From assembly GCF_000025985.1 (NCBI RefSeq), contig NC_003228.3, positions 2,604,001 to 2,668,000 on the forward strand: a stretch of DNA of 64,000 nucleotides. The letters run 5' to 3'. Under the pieces are notes generated by a model. The model ran no database searches. It was not told the origin of the DNA and saw only the letters and a list, made by a program, of their open reading frames with translations. The DNA comes from Bacteroides fragilis NCTC 9343 (lineage in GTDB: Bacteria; Bacteroidota; Bacteroidia; Bacteroidales; Bacteroidaceae). The translations under genes and the position numbers were made by a program. Below, piece after piece: positions 53,901 through 64,000 of the stretch. Position 1 is the first letter of the stretch. Every line of letters starts with the position of its first letter.

Positions 53901-54200
53901 GAGAGCTTTTGGGGGAGTGTCAATTGAGAATTTTCCATCCAGGTCAGTGATGGTTCCGGTATTGGTGCCCTGCACTTTTACGGAAACTCCAATAAGAGGC
54001 TCACCCGTGTTGTCGATGATAACACCGGTGGTCTTCACTGTTTGCTGTTGTATACTTGCAGTCTCTTGTGTTTTGTAAGTATCGGCTTTTGCTTGTACGG
54101 GCAGCACGCAGCACAGTAATAAAGTTGCGGCTGCTGTTTTCAGGCAGTGTTTTTCCCATACTCTTGTAAACCTTAAGGATAGGTTACTTTTTTTCGTCAT
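50931..54200 (-). CDS. SusC/RagA-family TonB-linked outer-membrane transporter
   Basis: A 1089-residue transporter. The signal peptide (about 20-40, LLLCCVLPVQAKA) is followed by a carboxypeptidase-like domain (TTGVIIDNTGEPLIGVSVKV), the TonB-box-like DEVVVVGYGSQKK, a plug domain with PLVLIDGIEGD, VSVLKDAASSSIYGARAAFGVILI, and a 22-strand barrel ending RTISIGLNVNF. Paired with SusD downstream. With no degradative enzymes beside it, the substrate may be a small glycan, peptide or other nutrient. Confidence 0.95.
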   Translation of the reverse strand: MTKKSNLSLRFTRVWEKHCLKTAAATLLLCCVLPVQAKADTYKTQETASIQQQTVKTTGVIIDNTGEPLIGVSVKVQGTNTGTITDLDGKFSIDTPPKALLEFSFIGYKTIIMEVTGKELHITMQEDSKQLDEVVVVGYGSQKKVNVTGSVSMVNADVLESRPVQNVSQALQGVIPGLNMSVGSSGGTLDGKLNVNIRGAGTISDGSSSSPLVLIDGIEGDMNTVNPNDIESVSVLKDAASSSIYGARAAFGVILITTKSGKSGKTRVNYSGNVRFSDAIQLPDMVDSYTFAQYFNRASTNGGESPTFDEKALQNILDFQNGKFTDPSTPEYYGVEAGPDGKWKSYAGSFANTDWFKEFYKSWTPSTEHNLSISGGTEKLTYMISGSFLNQNGLIRHGEDNFNRYTMNAKISAKPAEWVTLNYTSKWTREDYDRPTYMTGAFFHNIARRWPTCAPMDPNGHYMPNMEIIQLEEGGVQTSQRNWYTNQLQAIFEPVKDWRIVVEGSMRTYTRKQHWAVLPIYGYDVNNKPYLLSWNGGAAGYSEVQDEREDEDYFSGNIYSDYAKTIGNHYFKVMGGFNAELFRPSGMTGFGTDLISSNVPSLGLTQDNQKANAWARERAIAGFFGRVNYNYKERYMLEANLRYDGSSRFVGDKRWGLFPSFSAGWNIAREDFFRPLAGVIGTLKLRGSWGQLGNNNTDKANAWYPFYQNMITGSANSGWLIDSKKQNTAQLPGIVNSLMTWETIESWDIGLDFGLLDNRLTGSVGYYNRYTYDMIGPAPILPPVLGALPPQVNNCDMKSYGWELELSWRDRISEFDYSARFVLSDGKRKILRYPNPTNSLSSDVYYNGQILGDIWGYKTVGIAQTQEEMNAHLANGGTPNWGTNWGAGDVMYANLDGKEGVNNGSNTLEDHGDLTIIGNNTPRYNFGLTLTGAWKGFDFSVFLQGVMKRDYWLDGPYFWGANGGLWQSTAFKEHMDYWRPEGDPLGANTNAYYPKPYFNTDKNQKVQSGYLQNAAYCRLKNAQIGYTLPKTWTRKAAMESVRVYVSGDNLVTFSGISGVFDPELLGSDWGDGKLYPLQRTISIGLNVNF

Positions 54201-54440
54201 AAATAAAATAGGTTTGAGTTAAACATGTTTTTCAGTTTTCTACTTCTTTTACTACTCCATTCTTGCTTCCGAATCGGAGTCTAGTTAGTTTTTACTTCTT
54301 CTACTTTTTCATAATTTTTCTTTTAGGTGATACAATTATTGGGTTTCTCTGAAAAGAAACTAATGGATGAAATAGACAAAGATTATGCCAGCTGTGAAAG
54401 AATCGTATGAGCCGCTAATGAAGTATAATTTGGGGATAAG

Positions 54441-54482
54441 CATGTGGAATTTGCCACATGTTTGTGGAATAATTCCACAAAC
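54441..54482. promoter_or_regulatory. Double palindrome upstream of the PepSY-like gene
   Basis: catgtgg (54441-54447) pairs with ccacatg (54454-54460), and gtttgtggaat (54460-54470) pairs perfectly with attccacaaac (54472-54482). TGTGGAAT occurs at 54443 and 54463, 20 bases apart. This looks like two adjacent operator sites in the 336-base gap between SusC and the divergent gene. The rest of that gap shows nothing I can name. Confidence 0.6.
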
Positions 54483-54536
54483 AAAATACTCCTCTTATTG
54501 TTACTTATCAAACTTGAAATTAAAAAGAACCTCATT

Positions 54537-55025
54537 ATGAAAAAGCTTAAATTTAATTTGTTGACAGGATTGCTGTTGCTGATTTCCGTCTCTGTTTTTG
54601 CAGCCGGCTTTCCACCTCCCGATAAAGTACAGGAGACCTTTCAGAAAATGTATCCCAAAGTTACTACAGTTGATTGGCAACGAAAGGGAGACTATCACAT
54701 TGCCGATATCAGGGTGGACGGACGGGAATTAAACGTCTGGTTTAGTGATAAGGGCAAATGGTTGATGACGGAGGTAGATGTCGAAACTCTGGAGGCTGTT
54801 CCTGCCGCTGTGGCAAAGGCCTTTATGCAAAGTACGATGGCATCTATGCAGCTGGAAGATGTAAGAATCATCACTTTCCCTAAGCAGCCGGCGGTAATTG
54901 TGATAGAAGTGGAAGAGTATAATACAGACACTGAGTTTCAGTTGTTTTATGCTCCGGACGGCAAACTGTTGCAGACCCTTAACGTGAGCGATACCGGAGG
55001 AGAGATTTACCCGGGATTGTTTTAG
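54537..55025 (+). CDS. PepSY-like exported protein
   Basis: A 162-residue protein from ATG 54537; the frame is open upstream to 54444 but the signal peptide (MKKLKFNLLTGLLLLISVSVFA) starts here. The mature part has two similar halves, PDKVQETFQKMYPKVTTVDWQ with ELNVWFSDKGKWL, and VPAAVAKAF with EFQLFYAPDGKLL. These are PepSY-like folds common in Bacteroides periplasmic proteins that may bind or inhibit other proteins. Role unknown. Single gene with the double palindrome about 55 bases upstream. Confidence 0.78.
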   Translation: MKKLKFNLLTGLLLLISVSVFAAGFPPPDKVQETFQKMYPKVTTVDWQRKGDYHIADIRVDGRELNVWFSDKGKWLMTEVDVETLEAVPAAVAKAFMQSTMASMQLEDVRIITFPKQPAVIVIEVEEYNTDTEFQLFYAPDGKLLQTLNVSDTGGEIYPGLF

Positions 55026-55112
55026 GCAAAGTTTGTGGAGATGATGTCGGGTATTATGCCTCTGTCGATTTTTAGATATGATCCGTAACAATATCGGTTA
55101 ATCAGTCATGAA

Positions 55113-56396
55113 TCAATATATAAGCTGACGAAAGTTACTCACGATATGATGAGTTATCATGTTATTATATTGAGGGTTGAGTGCATGTTCATCGGCTGAT
55201 CGGCAGACAATATGCAAATCATCTCCTTTGATTACCGCTGAAGGATAATTTCTTGAATATAATTCATTTGTAGAGCAAGCCACCATTCCGGCAAAACACC
55301 AGTCTACGCAATTCCTTGAAAAATGAAGTTGCAACCGGTGTCGTTCATTATTAGGTAATCCATATCTCTTTATATTTGATAAAGAGCTGACACGTCTCAT
55401 AGAGTCTGTGGCCTGATTGGACACTAACCAATAAAATCTTGTCAGTTCATCATATATGATAAAGAATTTCAGATGTCCGCCGGGAAATGGGATATATGAA
55501 ATCTTTTGTCCGGAAGGGGTGTGCTCCAATGAGGGAATCATACTTTGGTCGTCTTGTATTTCTATTTTAAAGAGGTGTGCATAATTGACACCTCCTGTAT
55601 GGGCTCTTAGAAAAAGATGAAAAACTTCTTTCAAATCAGTATGCCAAATATGGTCTTTATCTACAAATTTAACTACATTTGCTTCAAGCCAGCCTAGGGG
55701 AGCATTGTTGATACCTGTCGCTATTTCCTTGGGCTTATTGGTTTCACAATCATAAAACGGAATGCCGAAAAAATCCAATTTGGCTCCATCAAACACTTCC
55801 TTATAAATAAATTTTTCAGATCTGCTCCATGAAGATGCAAGGCAAAGATTGTCCTCGACACAAGCCCGAAACAGCGTAGGGGATAATCCGGCTACGTCCC
55901 ATCCTGTCACTTCGTTCAATCGGCAACGTTGCTCCATGGCTAAATATACATTCCCATTGGAAAAAAGGACATTGCAGGCTGAAGAATGCCACTTTTCTCC
56001 GTGGGTGAGGAAATAGGTGTCAGACCAGCTTTCACCATTATCTTCCGATTTCATGATACAAATATCCCCGGCATGCCCGATCAGGTAGATGCTGTTACCT
56101 ATTGTGAACAGACGTGCATGCCAAAACGGGAAATTTTGAACGAAAGTCCATTTCTGTCCATTATCATCAGAAATGAATATTTTCCCTTGTCCAAATCTGC
56201 TTCCACCAGCTCTGGATGACTTATGGCCCTCTATACTTTTTACACCTTCTCCTCCTAAATCGAAAGAAACTATTAAACGTCCCGTTGGTGTGACAATAAT
56301 GGAAGGCGTATAACAAAAAATCTTTGATGCGTCAGGAGAGGTGTAAATCGTATTTTCAGTAGTGGCTATCTGCATATAGTTCATAAGGCTTGACAT
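55113..56396 (-). CDS. Asp-box (sialidase-fold) protein without signal peptide
   Basis: About 427 residues when read from ATG 56396; ATGs at 56384, 56375 or 56429 are also possible, and all overlap the upstream gene. Two Asp-boxes are visible, SDDNGQKW and SEDNGESW, plus a weak third (SRNCVDW). PSIIVTPTGRLIVSFD resembles the first blade of sialidase-like propellers. There is no signal peptide, so it should be cytoplasmic, unlike host-foraging sialidases. Third gene of a tight operon with a CMP-sugar synthetase and a kinase-phosphatase fusion. Activity unknown. Confidence 0.65.
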   Translation of the reverse strand: MSSLMNYMQIATTENTIYTSPDASKIFCYTPSIIVTPTGRLIVSFDLGGEGVKSIEGHKSSRAGGSRFGQGKIFISDDNGQKWTFVQNFPFWHARLFTIGNSIYLIGHAGDICIMKSEDNGESWSDTYFLTHGEKWHSSACNVLFSNGNVYLAMEQRCRLNEVTGWDVAGLSPTLFRACVEDNLCLASSWSRSEKFIYKEVFDGAKLDFFGIPFYDCETNKPKEIATGINNAPLGWLEANVVKFVDKDHIWHTDLKEVFHLFLRAHTGGVNYAHLFKIEIQDDQSMIPSLEHTPSGQKISYIPFPGGHLKFFIIYDELTRFYWLVSNQATDSMRRVSSLSNIKRYGLPNNERHRLQLHFSRNCVDWCFAGMVACSTNELYSRNYPSAVIKGDDLHIVCRSADEHALNPQYNNMITHHIVSNFRQLIY

Positions 56397-57657
56397 TCCA
56401 GGCAGAGCAAGTCCAGAATGAATCACCATCGTTTTTATCAAAAATACAAAGTCCTCCCGGAGCCACTTTTATTTTATGCTCTTGGGCGAACTTCTCAAAA
56501 TCTCCCGTCAAATAGGGAGCAAAGCGTATAATCCCATTAGAAGTGACAAGTAAAGTTGTCTGATGAGGTATCACAGTCTTCTCTGCGAAATCCAGCCAAG
56601 TATGAATGATTTGGTCCGGATCTACTTTCCATCCATCAGGTACAACTGCATTTTTATCCCAATCTTCAATTATTTTTTTCCCTTTTTCGATATTTCCATT
56701 TCCTAAACGTAACCTCACTTCTTCTTCCGTTTTATTTTCGTCAACACCATAGTCGATCTCGACAAAAGCGTTTAATGGAGAAATATCTGAATCCAGACCG
56801 ATGGTCTGAACAGCTAACCGGGCTGTCTGCATGGTACGCAAAAGTGGAGCCGCATAGATTACGTCAGGGATCATATCATGTTCTTTTAAATATCTTCCAA
56901 TACTTCTTCCCTTAAATTCTTCGACTAATGGTAGATCGGTTTTTGCTCCGACTCTTGTCGGAGTTTCTTCCGGGCGAAACGTATTCCCATGACGGGCTAT
57001 GATAAGTCTGGTTCTCATTGGTTCTATTTGTTTAAAAGTGGTACAAATTCGTTTATATTCAGGCAATAAATATTGAAGGGTTTTGCTTCTTTCCTCAATA
57101 TAATATGGAGGTATATAACGTTTCCTGTTTTTCGCTCGCCTCCTGGCTTCTTCTTCCGGGATAAAAATAAAATTAAAGTGAACTTCGTATCCCTCAGACA
57201 ATAACAGATTAAATAAATCAATGTGTTGGGAGAGCGCAGACGAATGATCGAATATAATCAAATACTTATTTTCTATAGCTCTCTTAAGTAATTCATAACC
57301 GGCGATCCTTGCAGAAAGCTCCCATCTTTTGAATGCTTCTTCCGCATGGTTGACCTCTTCTCTAATATAGGGTAAACGCTCGTTTTCCATGATTGCATCA
57401 AATCCAATATAGATTGCACTTGAATTTTCAGGCATAGCAAGCAGTTTTTTGCAAAAAGTCGATTTGCCTGCCCCCGGAACTCCACTGACATTTATTAAAG
57501 CTGGTATTTCCCGGGGAATTCCTTTTTGCAAATATTCATCAATGATTTCCTCGTACACGGCAGCAATTTCCTCCTTATCAACTCCGTCAGGTATCGTCTC
57601 TTTTATATTACTGTAAGAATAACCGGTTATGCTGATCGCTATATCTTCCATTTTCAT
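56356..57657 (-). CDS. Fusion of a P-loop kinase and a histidine-phosphatase domain
   Basis: A 433-residue two-domain protein. Residues 50-210 are a zeta-toxin/AAA_33-type small-molecule kinase with Walker A GVPGAGKST (59-67) and IIFDHSSAL. Residues 216-430 are a phosphoglycerate-mutase-like domain with RHG (222-224), Arg274 in LLRTMQTA and Glu300. The second catalytic His, normally in an SHG motif, is Asn374 (TSNGIIR), so the phosphatase may be inactive. The order recalls PFK2/FBPase2, but no evidence shows that substrate. Its ATG overlaps the stop of the upstream gene (ATGA). Confidence 0.8.
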   Translation of the reverse strand: MKMEDIAISITGYSYSNIKETIPDGVDKEEIAAVYEEIIDEYLQKGIPREIPALINVSGVPGAGKSTFCKKLLAMPENSSAIYIGFDAIMENERLPYIREEVNHAEEAFKRWELSARIAGYELLKRAIENKYLIIFDHSSALSQHIDLFNLLLSEGYEVHFNFIFIPEEEARRRAKNRKRYIPPYYIEERSKTLQYLLPEYKRICTTFKQIEPMRTRLIIARHGNTFRPEETPTRVGAKTDLPLVEEFKGRSIGRYLKEHDMIPDVIYAAPLLRTMQTARLAVQTIGLDSDISPLNAFVEIDYGVDENKTEEEVRLRLGNGNIEKGKKIIEDWDKNAVVPDGWKVDPDQIIHTWLDFAEKTVIPHQTTLLVTSNGIIRFAPYLTGDFEKFAQEHKIKVAPGGLCIFDKNDGDSFWTCSAWNVKPYELYADSHY

Positions 57658-58484
57658 TCCGGTGAAAGATTGAATTCTCCAAATTCGGCGATTATTTTTT
57701 CAGCTCTTTCGATATCTTCCGGTGAATCAACTCCGGACATGGATTTACGGTTTCTATAGTCTACATCTATCATTTTTACAGGTATCCTGTTATGTAAAAA
57801 TCTCATTTGCTCTAATCCTTCAGGAAGCTCATAAGGAGAAGCTTCTACTTCAAAATATTTTTTGAGCGCGTCGTAAGTATACGAATAAAGTCCGATATGA
57901 CGTCTGACAGGAGATTTATCAAGAATTTTTCTGACCTTTTCTTCATTTCTTATCACGGGAATCATAGCTTTACTGAATGCAAGCGCGTATCCAAATTTAT
58001 CGACTTCAACCGTTGTCCCGCTATATGGTGTGATTTTCTTTGATTCTTTCATCCGGTCATACTCTTCCCAAGATAAATGAAGGCTGGGAGTGAAGACCTG
58101 TCCTTCCTTATCATTTTTCCAAGCTTCAATCAACTGTTCTATAAACCAGGGTGGGCATAACGGATTGTCTCCTTGCAGATTGACTATAAAATCCGGTTTC
58201 TCAGCAATTTTGGTTGTGACATCCCAGCATCTTTCTGTTCCACTTTTGCAGTTCTCGGAAGTCATCATTACAGCTATATTATTCTCCTTGCAGAAATTAA
58301 CGATTTTTTCGTGGTCTGTTGCGACGATGTAATTGCATCCTTCTACCTTATTACAAACATAGTTGGCAATCTCTGCAACGCGCAAAACCATTTCTTTTCC
58401 TGCTATTTTCACTAAGGGCTTCTCCGGCAAACGGGTTGACGCAAACCTTGAAGGTATAATAATTAAAATCTTATTTTTCTTCAT
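57654..58484 (-). CDS. KdsB-like CMP-sugar synthetase (divergent paralogue)
   Basis: A 276-residue cytidylyltransferase of the KdsB family, expected to join CTP to an acidic sugar such as Kdo. Visible are IIPSRFASTRLPEKPL, SGTER (81-85), QGDNP (104-108, usually QGDEP), RHIGLYSY and GVDSPED (251-257, metal-binding Asp). It is longer than the usual 250 residues, and the E-to-N change plus location away from lipid A genes suggest a second copy with another sugar. First gene of the three-gene operon. A possible -7 box CACTTTTG lies at 58532-58525. Confidence 0.8.
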   Translation of the reverse strand: MKKNKILIIIPSRFASTRLPEKPLVKIAGKEMVLRVAEIANYVCNKVEGCNYIVATDHEKIVNFCKENNIAVMMTSENCKSGTERCWDVTTKIAEKPDFIVNLQGDNPLCPPWFIEQLIEAWKNDKEGQVFTPSLHLSWEEYDRMKESKKITPYSGTTVEVDKFGYALAFSKAMIPVIRNEEKVRKILDKSPVRRHIGLYSYTYDALKKYFEVEASPYELPEGLEQMRFLHNRIPVKMIDVDYRNRKSMSGVDSPEDIERAEKIIAEFGEFNLSPE

Positions 58485-58648
58485 ACTATAATTGTTTATG
58501 ATATTAAAAACTATTTTGATTTAACAAAAGTGTTTATCAGTTGACAATATTCCCTCTTTTTCTATGCATTAAGTATGATAGCTCAATGCTATTGAAAGAT
58601 TAACATAATGGGACATCGTACAAGCTTAACCGATAAAAGTTGCAAGTT

Positions 58649-58780
58649 ATGGAAAATCTTTCAGATGACAAAGAACGTGAGCAAAAACATTCTTTTCGTC
58701 CTATATTTAAACACATCTGTTGGTTGGAAGCCAAATTTCCGGCATGGAGGATCGATAGGCTGAATTGTGGATTCTTTTAG
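58649..58780 (+). CDS. Possible 43-residue ORF or gene remnant
   Basis: ATG to TAG, 43 codons, beginning MENLSDDKEREQKHSF and containing WLEAKFPAWRIDRL. Composition is protein-like, but no promoter or ribosome site is evident and I recognise no family. It could be the 5' fragment of a lost gene. Confidence 0.25.
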   Translation: MENLSDDKEREQKHSFRPIFKHICWLEAKFPAWRIDRLNCGFF

Positions 58781-58948
58781 AAATAGAGGACAGGCCTTGT
58801 GGCACTGATTCCGGCAAAACGATTTTGAACAGACCCGGCAGAATCTCTATGACTTCAGATAAGAACTTATTTCTTTAATATAATAATGTATCTTCCCGGA
58901 TACTACGTTCTACTCTTAATGACTCTTCCGAAAGCTTGTATCCGAGAG

Positions 58949-59025
58949 GGGTGTAGCCCTACCATTACTTAGGTATAGCTATCCGGTCATTAGGGTTACA
59001 CCCTTTGCTCCGGATAGCTACACCC
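58949..59025. repeat. Interlocked inverted repeats
   Basis: tagctatccgg (58976-58986) pairs perfectly with ccggatagcta (59010-59020). gtgtagccct (58951-58960) pairs with agggttacac (58992-59001) with one G-T. gggtgtagc (58949-58957) can instead pair with gctacaccc (59017-59025). The pairings compete or cross, as in a switchable or pseudoknotted RNA. Confidence 0.6.
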
Positions 59026-59244
59026 ATACAAGATATATAGTTAAGCTCACATACCATACAAATATTAAGATCATAGGAATAGATCTTGTGCTCCCTTTAC
59101 AGAACTTTCCCGTAGCAAGATGTTTGTCTAGTTTGTATCAGTTTGTGGGAAACAGGAGTGTTTCGAAACACACATTCTGTATATTCCTCATGATCAGTCA
59201 TTTATGATTTTTCTGGAAAAACATGCTCCGGAAGGCCCTTTTTG

Positions 59245-59292
59245 TTTGGCAGTCTCTGCGTAAAAGCGGACATTTGCATTGTTGATCAACAA
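59245..59292 (+). promoter_or_regulatory. Possible promoter and palindrome ahead of the HU gene
   Basis: TTTG at 59245-59248 and ACATTTG ending at 59276 are spaced like -33/-7. A 14-base perfect palindrome ttgttgatcaacaa covers 59279-59292, where transcription would begin, and could be an operator. Confidence 0.4.
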
Positions 59293-59340
59293 AACGAGAG
59301 TAAAAAAATGAAATTTAAATCTTAAAAAAAGAAACGTAGT

Positions 59341-59808
59341 ATGAGTGTAATTTTTAAAACAGTAAAGCGCCCGTCAGATCCGCGCGTTGAGAATTCTCCC
59401 AAAAGGTATTATCCGCAACTTATCACACTGGGAAGGTCGGTTGACTTAAAGTTTATTGCACAAAAGATTCAGGACCGTTCGTCACTTTCGGTAGGTGATA
59501 TTAAGAGTACGATTCAGAATTTTGTAGAGAAACTGAAAGAGCAGTTGCTGGAAGGCAAAGCGGTAAATATCGAGGGATTGGGTGTATTTATGTTGGCTGC
59601 CAAATCGAAAGGCTCCGAAAAACAAGAGGACATCACTGCTAAAAGCGTGGATAGTGTGCGTATCTATTTTCAGGCTAATAAAGAACTGAAAATTACTAAA
59701 ACAGCTACCCGTGCAGGTGAGAAGCTGGACCTGATCAGTCTGGATGATTATCTGAAAGGGGCGGCCGATGGAGGAAACGGAGATATCGTGGATGACCCCA
59801 CAGCCTAA
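59341..59808 (+). CDS. HU-family DNA-binding protein, Bacteroidota type
   Basis: A 155-residue nucleoid-type protein. The N-terminal helices and beta-arm region resemble HU/IHF (LKFIAQKIQDRSSLSVGDIKST, VNIEGLGVFMLAAKSKG), with an extended C-terminus (TRAGEKLDLISLDDYLKG) not present in classical 90-residue HU. Such proteins are common in Bacteroides and may shape local DNA; targets are unknown. Single gene with a strong terminator. Confidence 0.85.
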   Translation: MSVIFKTVKRPSDPRVENSPKRYYPQLITLGRSVDLKFIAQKIQDRSSLSVGDIKSTIQNFVEKLKEQLLEGKAVNIEGLGVFMLAAKSKGSEKQEDITAKSVDSVRIYFQANKELKITKTATRAGEKLDLISLDDYLKGAADGGNGDIVDDPTA

Positions 59809-59961: not shown

Positions 59962-59991
59962 TTGTCAGATGGACGGGAATGATTATCTTTG
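59962..59991 (+). promoter_or_regulatory. Promoter of the PBP1A-like gene
   Basis: TATCTTTG (59984-59991) is an exact -7 box and TTG (59962-59964) lies 19 bases upstream. The start near 59998 supports the ATG at 60019. Confidence 0.65.
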
Positions 59992-60018
59992 CAACTTCGA
60001 ATAAAACTACGGAATAAA

Positions 60019-62352
60019 ATGATTAAAAAGATAGTAAAAGGCCTTTGGGTTTTCTTTGCACTGATGGTGCTGGCAGGAATTGCAGTGTTTGCCTCTATCG
60101 CTTACGGATGGATTGGATATATGCCTCCTGTAGAAGAACTGGAAAACCCGAATTACAAATTTGCCACCGAAATTCTTTCGGAGGATGGCAAGGTTTTGGG
60201 TACGTGGTCGCTTAGTAAGGAAAATCGTGTATACACCTCTTATAATGAACTTTCACCTAACATTGTCAATGCGTTGATCGCCACGGAGGACGTTCGCTTT
60301 ACCGAACATTCGGGTATCGACGCCAAAGCGCTGATACGTGCTGTGGTAAAGCGTGGATTGCTGATGCAGAAAAATGCAGGTGGAGGTAGTACGCTTTCAC
60401 AACAGCTCGCCAAGCAATTGTTTACGGACGAAGTTGCCAGAAATACGTTGCAGCGCCTGTTTCAGAAGCCGATAGAGTGGGTGATTGCCGTAAAACTGGA
60501 ACGTTATTATACAAAGGAAGAAATTTTGAGTATGTATCTCAATAAATTTGACTTCCTGAATAATGCAGTAGGAATTAAAACGGCTTCATATACCTATTTC
60601 GGATGCGAACCCAAAGATCTGAAAATAGAACAGGCTGCTACGCTGATCGGTATGTGTAAAAACCCTTCGCTTTACAATCCGGTGCGCTTCAACGAGCGTT
60701 CGCGCGGACGACGGAATACAGTGCTAGATCAAATGAGAAAGGCCGGATATATCACAGCGGAAGAGTGTGATTCGTTGCAGAATCTGCCGTTGGAATTGGT
60801 ATATCACCGGGTGGATCACAAAGAAGGATTGGCAACTTATTTCCGCGAATATCTACGTGGTGTGATGACTGCTCCTAAACCGGTCCGCAGCAATTATCGT
60901 GGCTGGCAAATGCAGAAATTTTATGAAGATTCGATCGACTGGGAAATGAATCCATTGTATGGTTGGTGTGAGAAGAATAAGAAAAAGGACGGTTCAAACT
61001 ATAACATTTATACGGATGGACTGAAAATTTATACAACTATCAACTCACACATGCAGCGCTATGCCGAGGAAGCAGTGGAAGAACATGTTGGGGAGTACTT
61101 GCAACCTTTGTTTTTCAAAGAGAAGAAAGGACGCAAAAAGGCACCATACAGTAATCAGCTGACTCAAGAGGAAATTGACCGCATCCTGGACAGGGCTGTG
61201 AAACAGACTTCCCGTTATCAAACGATGAAGGAAGCCGGCATTTCGGAAGCGGAAATCAAAAAAGCATTCAATAAGCCGGAATCTATGTCGGTGTTCACTT
61301 GGCATGGTGTGAAAGACACTATAATGTCCCCAATGGACTCTATCCGATATTATAAGCACTTCCTGCGTGCAGGATTTATGTCGATGGACCCCATAAACGG
61401 GCAAGTAAAGGCATATGTAGGTGGTCCGAACTACACTTATTTTCAATATGACATGGCAATGGTGGGACGTCGTCAAGTGGGATCTACCATTAAACCGTAT
61501 CTGTATGCATTGGCTATGGAAAACGGATTCTCACCTTGTGACGAGACACGTAATGTAGAAATCACTCTAATTGATGAAAATGGAAAACCTTGGTCACCCA
61601 AAAACACTTCAAAAGGACATTATGGTGAAATGGTGACTTTGAAATGGGGACTTGCAAACTCAAATAACTGGATTTCGGCATACTTGATGAGTAAACTGAA
61701 TCCGTATGCTTTGGCACGTTTGATTCACTCTTTCGGCGTACGCAATAAAGAAATTCAACCTACAGTCTCTCTCTGCCTCGGTCCGTGTGAGATTTCGGTG
61801 GGAGAGATGGTAAGTGCATATACGGCATTTGCCAATAAGGGAATCCGGGTGGCTCCATTGTTTGTGACTAAAATAGAGGATAGCGAAGGCAATGTATTGG
61901 CTACCTTCTCGCCACAGATGGAAGAGGTGATCAGTGCATCGAGTGCTTATAAGATGTTGGTAATGTTGCGTGCCGTAATCAATGAAGGTACAGGAGGACG
62001 TGTCCGCAGGTATGGAATAACTGCCGATATGGGTGGTAAGACCGGAACGACTAACCGCAACTCGGACGGATGGTTCATGGGATTCACCCCTTCACTGGTA
62101 TCCGGATGCTGGGTAGGCGGTGAAGAACGTGATATCCATTTCGATACAATGACTTATGGTCAGGGGGCTTCTCTGGCATTGCCTATCTGGACAAAATATA
62201 TGCATAAGGTGTATGCCGACCAGACATTGGGATATGATCCGAAAGAGACTTTTAAATTGCCTGACGGATTTGACCCGTGCAAAGACTTCAGTATTTCGGG
62301 AGATAGCATTATAGATGAACCGGAATCAGGGTTGGACGATTTGTTTAATTAA
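60019..62352 (+). CDS. Class A penicillin-binding protein (transglycosylase/transpeptidase)
   Basis: A 777-residue bifunctional peptidoglycan synthase. One N-terminal membrane helix (about 6-30) is followed by the GT51 domain with the catalytic Glu in EDVRFTEHSG (90-99) and GGSTLSQQLAKQLF (122 onward). The transpeptidase domain has active Ser in GSTIKPY (about 491), SNN (about 548) and KTGTTNR (about 674). It polymerises and cross-links glycan strands in the periplasm and is a beta-lactam target. The frame is open upstream to 59989 but the promoter overlaps that region. Confidence 0.94.
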   Translation: MIKKIVKGLWVFFALMVLAGIAVFASIAYGWIGYMPPVEELENPNYKFATEILSEDGKVLGTWSLSKENRVYTSYNELSPNIVNALIATEDVRFTEHSGIDAKALIRAVVKRGLLMQKNAGGGSTLSQQLAKQLFTDEVARNTLQRLFQKPIEWVIAVKLERYYTKEEILSMYLNKFDFLNNAVGIKTASYTYFGCEPKDLKIEQAATLIGMCKNPSLYNPVRFNERSRGRRNTVLDQMRKAGYITAEECDSLQNLPLELVYHRVDHKEGLATYFREYLRGVMTAPKPVRSNYRGWQMQKFYEDSIDWEMNPLYGWCEKNKKKDGSNYNIYTDGLKIYTTINSHMQRYAEEAVEEHVGEYLQPLFFKEKKGRKKAPYSNQLTQEEIDRILDRAVKQTSRYQTMKEAGISEAEIKKAFNKPESMSVFTWHGVKDTIMSPMDSIRYYKHFLRAGFMSMDPINGQVKAYVGGPNYTYFQYDMAMVGRRQVGSTIKPYLYALAMENGFSPCDETRNVEITLIDENGKPWSPKNTSKGHYGEMVTLKWGLANSNNWISAYLMSKLNPYALARLIHSFGVRNKEIQPTVSLCLGPCEISVGEMVSAYTAFANKGIRVAPLFVTKIEDSEGNVLATFSPQMEEVISASSAYKMLVMLRAVINEGTGGRVRRYGITADMGGKTGTTNRNSDGWFMGFTPSLVSGCWVGGEERDIHFDTMTYGQGASLALPIWTKYMHKVYADQTLGYDPKETFKLPDGFDPCKDFSISGDSIIDEPESGLDDLFN

Positions 62353-62365
62353 TGTAATGTGAGCG

Positions 62366-62734
62366 ATGCACTCCTGTCTGATTTGTATAGGAAGCAATTA
62401 TAACCGGAAGGAGAATCTCCTTCTGGCTCGTAGGAGACTGACGGCTCTGTTCCCCTCTATCCGTTTTACGGGTGAGCAGGAGACAAGGCCGTTATTCTTT
62501 CGTAACCCGGCACTATTCTCTAACCAAATGGCCCGTTTCTATACCGATGCAGATGCTGAACGGGTAGTGAAGGAGTTGAAAACAATCGAAAGAGAGGCCG
62601 GCAGGGAGCAGGAAGATAAAAAGAAAGAAAAGGTATGCCTGGATATTGATCTGCTTGTTTTTGATGACCGGATCTTGAGGCCGGAAGATCTGCAAAGAGA
62701 ATATGTTCGCAAAGGACTTGAAGAATTGAAGTAG
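62366..62734 (+). CDS. folK: FolK-like HPPK, short form
   Basis: 6-hydroxymethyl-7,8-dihydropterin pyrophosphokinase, the folate-pathway step before sulfonamide-sensitive DHPS. 122 residues against a usual 155-165. The start has ICIGSNYNRKENL, the middle FRNPALFSNQMARFYT, and VCLDIDLLVFDDRIL keeps the Asp-x-Asp metal pair. The usual R-x-D-x-D-x-D pattern and the C-terminal PHP block are reduced or absent, so activity is uncertain. It starts 13 bases after the PBP gene, probably cotranscribed. Confidence 0.7.
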   Translation: MHSCLICIGSNYNRKENLLLARRRLTALFPSIRFTGEQETRPLFFRNPALFSNQMARFYTDADAERVVKELKTIEREAGREQEDKKKEKVCLDIDLLVFDDRILRPEDLQREYVRKGLEELK

Positions 62735-62796
62735 CCCTCTCGGGCTCACAACTAAATATAAGAATATATGAGTTTTTTACAGAAAAATAGTTTATT

Positions 62797-64000
62797 ATGA
62801 ACCGGACACTACAACCCGAAATTCAGGAACTGGTCCAATTTAATATTCTTCCTCCGGTGCGTACTGTCATGCCGAATGGAGTGCCGTTGACAATTATCAA
62901 CGCAGGTGAACAGGATGTGGTACGTGTCGATATTTTGTTTGGAGGCGGACGATGGCAACAATCACAAAAACTGCAGGCATTATTTGCCAATCGCATGTTA
63001 CGTGAAGGATCCCGAAAATATACAGCGGCGGAGATAGCCGAAAAGTTGGATTATTATGGAGCATGGCTTGAATTGTCCAGTTCGGCGGAATATGCATATA
63101 TCACACTGTATTCGTTAAATAAGTATTTTGCCGAAACGCTCGATGTACTCGAATCGATCATAAAAGAACCTCTCTTCCCGGAAAAAGAACTGGGTACGGT
63201 AATAGATGCCAATATTCAGCAATATCAGGTAAATGCATCAAAAGTAGATTTTCTGGCACATAGAAGTTTATTGAGAGCACTTTACGGAGAGGAGCATCCG
63301 TGTGGACGCTATGTGGAAGAAATGGACTATCATCATATCACTCCGGCTTTATTACGCGAGTTTTATGATACATATTATCATTCGGGAAATTGCTATGTTT
63401 ACCTTTCCGGTAAAGTGACGGACGAGATTACCCACCGTATAGAAGCCGCTTTCGGTACGACACATTTTGGAAATCATCAGCAAGTGGCGGTCAAGAAAGA
63501 TTTTACATTTGTTAGCATACCCGAGAAACGCCTTTTCATAGAGAGAGAAGATGCGATGCAGAGTGCAGTAAAGCTGGGTACAACTACTATTATGAGGACA
63601 CATCCGGACTATCTGAAACTCCGGGTACTGATCACTCTGTTCGGAGGATATTTTGGAAGCAGACTGATGTCTAATATCCGGGAAGAGAAAGGGTACACGT
63701 ATGGGATTTCGGCCGGAATCATGTTTTATCCGGGCAGCGGTTTGCTGGGTATCAGTACAGAAACAGCTAATGAATATGTAGAACCTCTGATACAGGAAGT
63801 CTACAAAGAGATTGATAAGTTGCAGAATGACAAAGTAACTCCGGAAGAACTGGCCATGGTGCGCAACTATATGCTTGGAGAAATGTGCCGTAATTATGAG
63901 TCGCCTTTCTCACTGGCAGATGCCTGGATGTTTATTCTGACATCAGGTCTGGACGATGATTATTTTGCCCGTTCGCTACAAGCTGTGAAAGAGGTTACCC
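62797..64000 (+). CDS. M16-family peptidase-like protein without HxxEH (3' end outside window)
   Basis: The frame runs open from ATG 62797 to the window end, over 400 codons (start MNRTLQPEIQELVQFN). M16 features are visible: TVMPNGVPLTII, YYHSGNCYVYLSGKV, and the C-terminal REEKGYTYGISAG block with FGSRLMSNI. Where active M16 enzymes have HxxEH, this protein reads ANRMLREGSRKY, so the zinc site is missing. Such chains usually pair with an active subunit or act as chaperone-like partners. No active partner is seen in the window. Confidence 0.85.
   Translation, partial: MNRTLQPEIQELVQFNILPPVRTVMPNGVPLTIINAGEQDVVRVDILFGGGRWQQSQKLQALFANRMLREGSRKYTAAEIAEKLDYYGAWLELSSSAEYAYITLYSLNKYFAETLDVLESIIKEPLFPEKELGTVIDANIQQYQVNASKVDFLAHRSLLRALYGEEHPCGRYVEEMDYHHITPALLREFYDTYYHSGNCYVYLSGKVTDEITHRIEAAFGTTHFGNHQQVAVKKDFTFVSIPEKRLFIEREDAMQSAVKLGTTTIMRTHPDYLKLRVLITLFGGYFGSRLMSNIREEKGYTYGISAGIMFYPGSGLLGISTETANEYVEPLIQEVYKEIDKLQNDKVTPEELAMVRNYMLGEMCRNYESPFSLADAWMFILTSGLDDDYFARSLQAVKEVT

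Follow-up and report, generated by a model that had tools for sequence, protein, structure and literature searches.

The 64,000-nucleotide stretch of Bacteroides fragilis NCTC 9343 DNA analysed here (contig NC_003228.3, positions 2,604,001 to 2,668,000; hereafter the window) carries a minus-strand operon of three genes, the first of which encodes a divergent KdsB-type synthetase of cytidine monophosphate (CMP)-activated sugars. The comparisons described below make it likely that B. fragilis has lost the canonical kdsB gene and that this xenologous, capsule-type KdsB now activates 3-deoxy-D-manno-octulosonic acid (Kdo) for lipopolysaccharide (LPS). The operon is composed as follows.

57654 to 58484, minus strand: gene 1, divergent KdsB-type CMP-sugar synthetase, 276 amino acids (aa) (open reading frame (ORF), TIGR00466, PF02348)
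56356 to 57657, minus strand: gene 2, P-loop kinase (residues ~1-206) followed by histidine phosphatase (~214-429), 433 aa (ORF, Pfam)
55113 to 56375, minus strand: gene 3, cytoplasmic sialidase-fold protein, 420 aa (ORF, probable start by alignment)

A first-pass annotation, made from the DNA letters alone, had described this minus-strand operon, and the ORFs do sit at the coordinates it claimed, including the ATGA overlap of genes 1 and 2 at 57654-57657. The product types assigned then were recovered as well, namely a KdsB-like protein (CTP_transf_3) containing QGDNP, a P-loop kinase-histidine phosphatase fusion and a sialidase-fold protein without a signal peptide. The overlap of genes 2 and 3, however, had been placed at 56356-56396; since the nearest homologues of gene 3 start at the alignment column of the ATG at 56375, gene 3 is probably 420 aa long and the overlap probably spans 20 bp (56356-56375). 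In agreement with the earlier impression of AT-richness, the GC contents of the three genes are 0.385, 0.392 and 0.401, compared with 0.428 for the window, 0.454/0.446 for SusC/SusD genes and 0.441 for a penicillin-binding protein (PBP) gene.

The product of gene 1 matches Pfam CTP_transf_3 with 132.9 bits and narrowly passes the cut-off of TIGR00466 (159 versus 155.2 bits). Its metal-binding Asp106 and Asp253 and phosphate-binding Lys22 align with the canonical KdsB copies; the metal-binding Asp pair and the Lys are named in part of the published text on Aquifex KdsB (PMC3149649). The TIGR00466 search of the genome yielded a single match, gene 1 (158.5 bits), and on this ground an extra KdsB beside a normal one was rejected. 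Two matches were obtained with PF02348, gene 1 and a 223-aa ORF (L002) that looks like a CMP-sialate-type synthetase, and two with NF003952, the better of which (E 1.9e-80) fits gene 1, positions not being given among the matches listed.

Comparison of the gene 1 protein with 158 genomes of the genus (E ≤ 1e-20) gave one match each in 122, namely NCTC 9343 itself (100% identity), strain S82 (99%) and 120 others at 33-40%, an identity like that of the canonical copies we examined. Among the 36 genomes without a match, 22 fall short of the quality threshold (90% completeness, 5% contamination). Very distant copies may escape this search: a second, distant KdsB of genome G018, detected with TIGR00466, was absent from its results. 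When the relatives were searched with TIGR00466, 34 of 41 genomes scored over the cut-off, including 20 of the 25 from the same genus (own included); 18 of these reached at least 204 bits, and NCTC 9343 and S82 about 158 bits.

KdsA and KdsC are present over their cut-offs in the genome, and WaaA is present too. The presence of WaaA and of an over-cut-off KdsB agrees in 12/12 genomes, nine having both and three neither. The latter three (G016, G020 and G024, of the same genus, with completeness of 94, 90 and 99%) look as if they had Kdo-free envelopes, and KdsC is over the cut-off in two of them.

Given a sole KdsB accompanied by KdsA, KdsC and WaaA, ordinary Kdo activation would be the simplest role of gene 1. 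For the same reason the additional, exotic pathway proposed by the first-pass annotation is not needed, its unusual acidic sugar surviving as the least probable reading considered below. That annotation had also held that its proposal would fall if gene 1 encoded the only KdsB of the genome and had normal Kdo activity; TIGR00466 and the genus search find it to be the only one, and normal activity would be the simplest supposition. The B. thetaiotaomicron lipooligosaccharide paper (PMC5850320) reports Raetz lipid A pathway orthologues in the Bacteroides it surveyed and an analysis of the lipid A of B. fragilis NCTC 9343, which is in line with a need for CMP-Kdo. The string 'kds' does not occur in the main text of that paper or of two B. 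fragilis transposon studies.

The canonical kdsB has a defined position in the genus. In all five same-genus loci examined (L088, L089, L090, L093 and L094, from G021, G003, G001, G1104 and G1067) it is flanked on one side by an M16 peptidase gene and on the other by a FolK-like gene, which adjoins a PBP gene; G003 has its FolK-like gene on the opposite strand, the PBP gene is partial in two loci, and an HU gene was seen only in L088. The corresponding part of the window reads as follows, the PBP gene (59989 to 62352) and the M16 family being putative assignments by sequence type.

58485 to 59340, no strand: gene-poor stretch 5' of the operon (ORF map)
59341 to 59808, plus strand: HU-family DNA-binding protein, synteny marker (PF18291)
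59989 to 62352, plus strand: PBP gene, synteny marker
62366 to 62734, plus strand: FolK-like (HPPK) gene, synteny marker (PF01288)
62735 to 62796, no strand: 62-bp spacer, the canonical kdsB slot of relatives (locus comparison)
62797 to 64000, plus strand: M16-type peptidase gene, cut by the window end, synteny marker

Both in the window and in S82 the M16, FolK-like and PBP neighbours are all kept and kdsB alone is missing, with 62 bp left in its place in the window. The FolK-like gene was considered as the taker of this place and rejected, because the relatives carry it too. A kdsB remnant in the spacer found no statistical support against the five relatives: 11, 42, 107, 310 and 341 of 500 shuffled spacers, respectively, scored as high. 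Gene 1 does not lie beside the FolK-like and M16 genes, as a canonical orthologue would; the operon is found on the far side of the HU and PBP genes, only ~4 kb from the canonical slot, and this proximity suggests that the gain of the operon and the loss of canonical kdsB may be linked.

Phylogenetic analysis also sets gene 1 apart. In a tree of 27 rows (E. coli KdsB, KpsU and two of the eight intended loci have no row in it) gene 1 and its homologues form a group of 12 rows (97/99), which is joined by the Hirschia and Novosphingobium sequences in a group of 14 (96/92), whereas the canonical KdsB of the genus forms a separate starred clade. The tree and the alignment mark this cytidylyltransferase as a divergent subfamily. 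Gene 1 shares with canonical Bacteroides KdsB an over-cut-off TIGR00466 match, the Asp pair, Lys22, His196 and Glu225-Gln226, but it is only 35-38% identical to the copies in the five genus loci, is longer (276 versus ~250 aa), reads QGDNP and FSK, and occupies another locus, in an operon with a kinase-phosphatase gene. The best 120 of its 7521 homologues are mostly 59-86% identical to it and bear names from several phyla. The manno-octulosonate cytidylyltransferases of the Hirschia and Novosphingobium plasmids, which are of the capsule type, fall in the same starred clade, have FSK and are followed by a related histidine phosphatase; they differ from gene 1 in their 39-43% identity to it, in reading QGDAP, in the absence of a kinase domain from the phosphatase and, in the Novosphingobium set, in having kdsA and kpsF nearby. 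Most likely, as judged from these sequences, gene 1 is a xenologous replacement making CMP-Kdo or a close variant. A phage origin was rejected, as the kinase domain has no match in phages at E ≤ 1e-3; the KdsB alignment revealed no confirmed relative in viral contigs, and four phage records hold a KdsB of 32-35% identity.

The search for co-occurrence of the three families, which had been recommended as a check, returned them elsewhere in pairs, in both locus and homologue searches: KdsB with the phosphatase, adjoining or fused, and KdsB with gene 3. A phosphatase relative directly follows kdsB in Hirschia baltica and in two Novosphingobium plasmid records; in Novosphingobium pLA5 the order is kdsA (other strand), kpsF, kdsB, phosphatase and a capsule gene. 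In a Mesorhizobium plasmid, kdsA and a kpsF-type gene flank a more distant phosphatase, which has His at the position of the clade's Asn. In two related Sinorhizobium plasmids, a KdsB gene with 35% identity to gene 1 lies 180 bp from a homologue of gene 3 (51%); a divergent orientation of this pair was rejected, the two genes being convergent. Next to the pair (L084 14001-18121, L085 12103-16223) are genes for a methyltransferase and a CDP-alcohol phosphatidyltransferase, and a C-P lyase (phn) cluster is close by.

Within the phylum, matches are too few for co-occurrence statistics. The kinase-phosphatase fusion was found in 1/201 genomes of the family (S82 is not among the matches listed), gene 1 at E ≤ 1e-70 in 1/393 genomes of the order, and gene 3 at E ≤ 1e-40 in 1/335 genomes of the phylum; across 395 genomes the phosphatase profile scores 395 bits in NCTC 9343 and 53.8 in the next best. 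P0067 of the gene 3 family and P0215 of the gene 1 family appear to come from one genome.

Strain S82 offers natural deletions within the operon. Two segments of the window are missing from it: 57052-57640, a 589-bp stretch of the kinase, and ~55078-56229, 1.15 kb that take in most of gene 3. The phosphatase frame nevertheless stays open from the same ATGA start (L008 9406-10904). Its KdsB is 99% identical to that of NCTC 9343, and the ratios of nonsynonymous to synonymous substitution rates between the two strains are 0.044 for KdsB and 0.082 for the phosphatase. In view of these losses and low ratios, KdsB and the phosphatase look like the selected core of the operon, as far as one compared strain can tell, and the kinase looks dispensable because S82 has lost it.

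The favoured explanation is therefore built on what is seen in the genome: a sole KdsB found, an empty slot, KdsA, KdsC and WaaA present, an intact metal site and purifying selection. Canonical kdsB would have been lost and the gene 1 enzyme would have taken over the synthesis of CMP-Kdo, or of a close variant, for LPS. The phosphatase of gene 2 would most likely dephosphorylate the ulosonic acid (Kdo-8-phosphate) just before its activation, duplicating or backing up KdsC, a role to which gene context and fusions point; the kinase half would either counteract the phosphatase or supply the pathway, in a layout like that of PFKFB. Gene 3 would be a glycosidase-like protein with a sialidase fold, only loosely tied to the other two and likewise largely lost in S82. 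Making CMP-Kdo is central to most Gram-negative envelopes and has been discussed as a target for antibiotics. In a model gut symbiont, the locus would present a clean case of a core envelope gene displaced by a distantly related one near the site that the lost gene once occupied. It also draws attention to an unassigned family of phosphatases, and to a kinase-phosphatase fusion, linked with the activation of ulosonic acids.

Several observations weigh against this explanation. KdsC is still present, so that a second Kdo-8-phosphate phosphatase is not needed. The residue at the position of the second catalytic His is Asn374 in 29/29 aligned phosphatase members, and this second His has a catalytic role in histidine phosphatases. 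Only three of the 26 plasmid records with KdsB-like matches (the best 20 of the 26 being listed) have the phosphatase beside KdsB, and the KpsF-KdsB-KdsA sets of Palleronia and Bacillus velezensis have neither phosphatase. The one same-family locus compared from outside the genus (L063, G045) showed no synteny marker within its 3.7 kb. Finally, QGDNP and FSK replace QGDEP and FSR in 16/16 subfamily members, which could mean a different sugar. As to KdsC, no KdsC-like gene was matched in 7/7 plasmid stretches at E ≤ 0.01 (four KdsC queries; controls positive), the HAD-like hydrolase annotated 12 kb from kdsB in the Hirschia stretch being likewise without a KdsC-query match. Since plasmid sets with neither phosphatase exist, the absence of KdsC beside a gene 2-type phosphatase lends weak support to the proposed role.

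The kinase half and gene 3 may instead have hitchhiked out of a capsule locus together with gene 1 and do little now, a possibility which we hold to be somewhat unlikely. It would fit the AT-richness of the operon, the loss of the kinase and of most of gene 3 in S82, and the gene 3 family itself, which includes members named from Planctomycetes, rhizobia and Paenibacillus. To our knowledge Paenibacillus makes no Kdo, so the link of gene 3 to the sugar is weak. On the other hand, the 433-aa fusion is widely kept, representing clusters of 1569 and 1059 member sequences, and the Sinorhizobium plasmids keep the gene 3 homologue beside a KdsB gene. The gene 3 protein has the sialidase fold over its full length, like GH33 sialidases (e.g. 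NanA) and human cytosolic Neu2, and shares with Neu2 the absence of a signal peptide. It differs from them in its ~15% identity and in its Pfam matches, which are all sub-threshold (BNR_2 15.5 versus 31.4 bits, BNR 12.9 versus 27), and perhaps also at the RIP motif of GH33 sialidases: the region placed there by eye reads CYTP, without the Arg, and Tyr-Thr/Ser-Pro was found in 17/17 aligned members.

Alternatively, gene 2 could be a control device resembling PFKFB, which makes and destroys phosphorylated Kdo or a signal and so sets the flux into CMP-Kdo; this we regard as quite doubtful. As in PFKFB, an N-terminal P-loop kinase and a C-terminal histidine phosphatase are joined in one chain, PFKFB2/3 are the best whole-chain rows in Foldseek, and P0005, a kinase-phosphatase 45% identical to gene 2, occurs elsewhere. 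The TM-scores to PFKFB, however, are only 0.36-0.40, the kinase matches Zeta_toxin/AAA_33 and not 6PF2K (PF01591 is not among the gene 2 families at E ≤ 1, HMMER filters dropping most weak matches), and S82 has dropped the kinase. Gene 2 further differs from PFKFB in showing no sign of a fructose substrate and in having Asn for the second phosphatase His. Both parts occur together in only five of the 53 homologues (P0001-P0005), with an altered kinase part in P0003; a sixth, P0036, matches by the kinase only. In P0025 the phosphatase is fused to KdsB, and P0035 contains an acetyltransferase domain; this search misses proteins shorter than 0.55 of the query length. The phosphatase itself belongs to branch 1 of the histidine phosphatase superfamily (His_Phos_1, PF00300, 45.5 bits versus a cut-off of 21.7), and Arg222, His223 and Gly224 (RHG), Arg274 and Glu300 are present in 29/29 aligned members. 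It would share its proposed reaction with KdsC, as its context suggests, but KdsC has the unrelated HAD fold. That SNG-type phosphatases form an unrecognised, non-orthologous family of Kdo-8-phosphate phosphatases accompanying capsule-type KdsB, and that in B. fragilis the cassette took over an essential LPS step with the fused kinase acting in a PFKFB-like push-pull, is a speculative extension to which we attach a low probability. In P0006 the phosphatase (66% identical) is fused to a YhcH-type domain (PF04074), which we take to belong to the family of sialic acid anomerases; this hints that an anomerase step accompanies the release of the ulosonic acid.

Least credible is that the operon activates a Kdo-like ulosonic acid (a modified Kdo, 8-amino-Kdo or a nonulosonic acid) replacing Kdo in the LPS core or decorating the capsule, since, for all that the subfamily motifs, the joint operon and the absence of the canonical enzyme speak for it, KdsA, KdsC and WaaA are of ordinary kinds, the kdsB-phosphatase pair of pLA5 sits with Kdo-making kdsA and kpsF, and the Asp pair, His196 and Glu225-Gln226 match the canonical copies. 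In the alignment of gene 1, 14 of its homologues and P0025, the invariant positions (16/16) are Asp106, Asp253, Lys22, His196, Glu225, Gln226, QGDNP and FSK; QGDEP and FSR were read in three canonical Bacteroides copies, and QGDA and FSK in four plasmid-borne alphaproteobacterial KdsB, the second Asp being missing in two of the latter (Sinorhizobium, Palleronia).

As the first-pass annotation had supposed, no described pathway with such a gene set surfaced in the literature searched, which for some queries comprised part of the matching papers, and the term 'histidine phosphatase' does not occur in the papers text-searched for it, among those listed. The gene-poor flank at 58485-59340, also noticed earlier, holds one imperfect 15-nt inverted repeat, and no Rfam match up to E 0.1 was found in 54000-59400; an invertible promoter or an RNA in this flank was rejected on these grounds. 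A sigma-70-type scan of 54000-59400 gave 24 promoter-like sites compared with 14.8 (sd 4.4) in shuffles, counted with a consensus that may not be the host's, Bacteroides promoters being of a type other than sigma-70.

More distant second KdsB-like genes, both with NGDEP and standing apart in the tree, were detected in G018 (L009 6261-6998), among glycosyltransferase-like genes, and in G027 (L010 7103-7876), where KdsA- and KpsF-like genes adjoin the copy (by eye). A 16-kb sea-water plasmid of the Gram-positive Bacillus velezensis carries KpsF, KdsB and KdsA homologues in a row (L095 6145-8580); a Kdo island has been reported in B. coahuilensis, according to part of the published text (PMC4744853).

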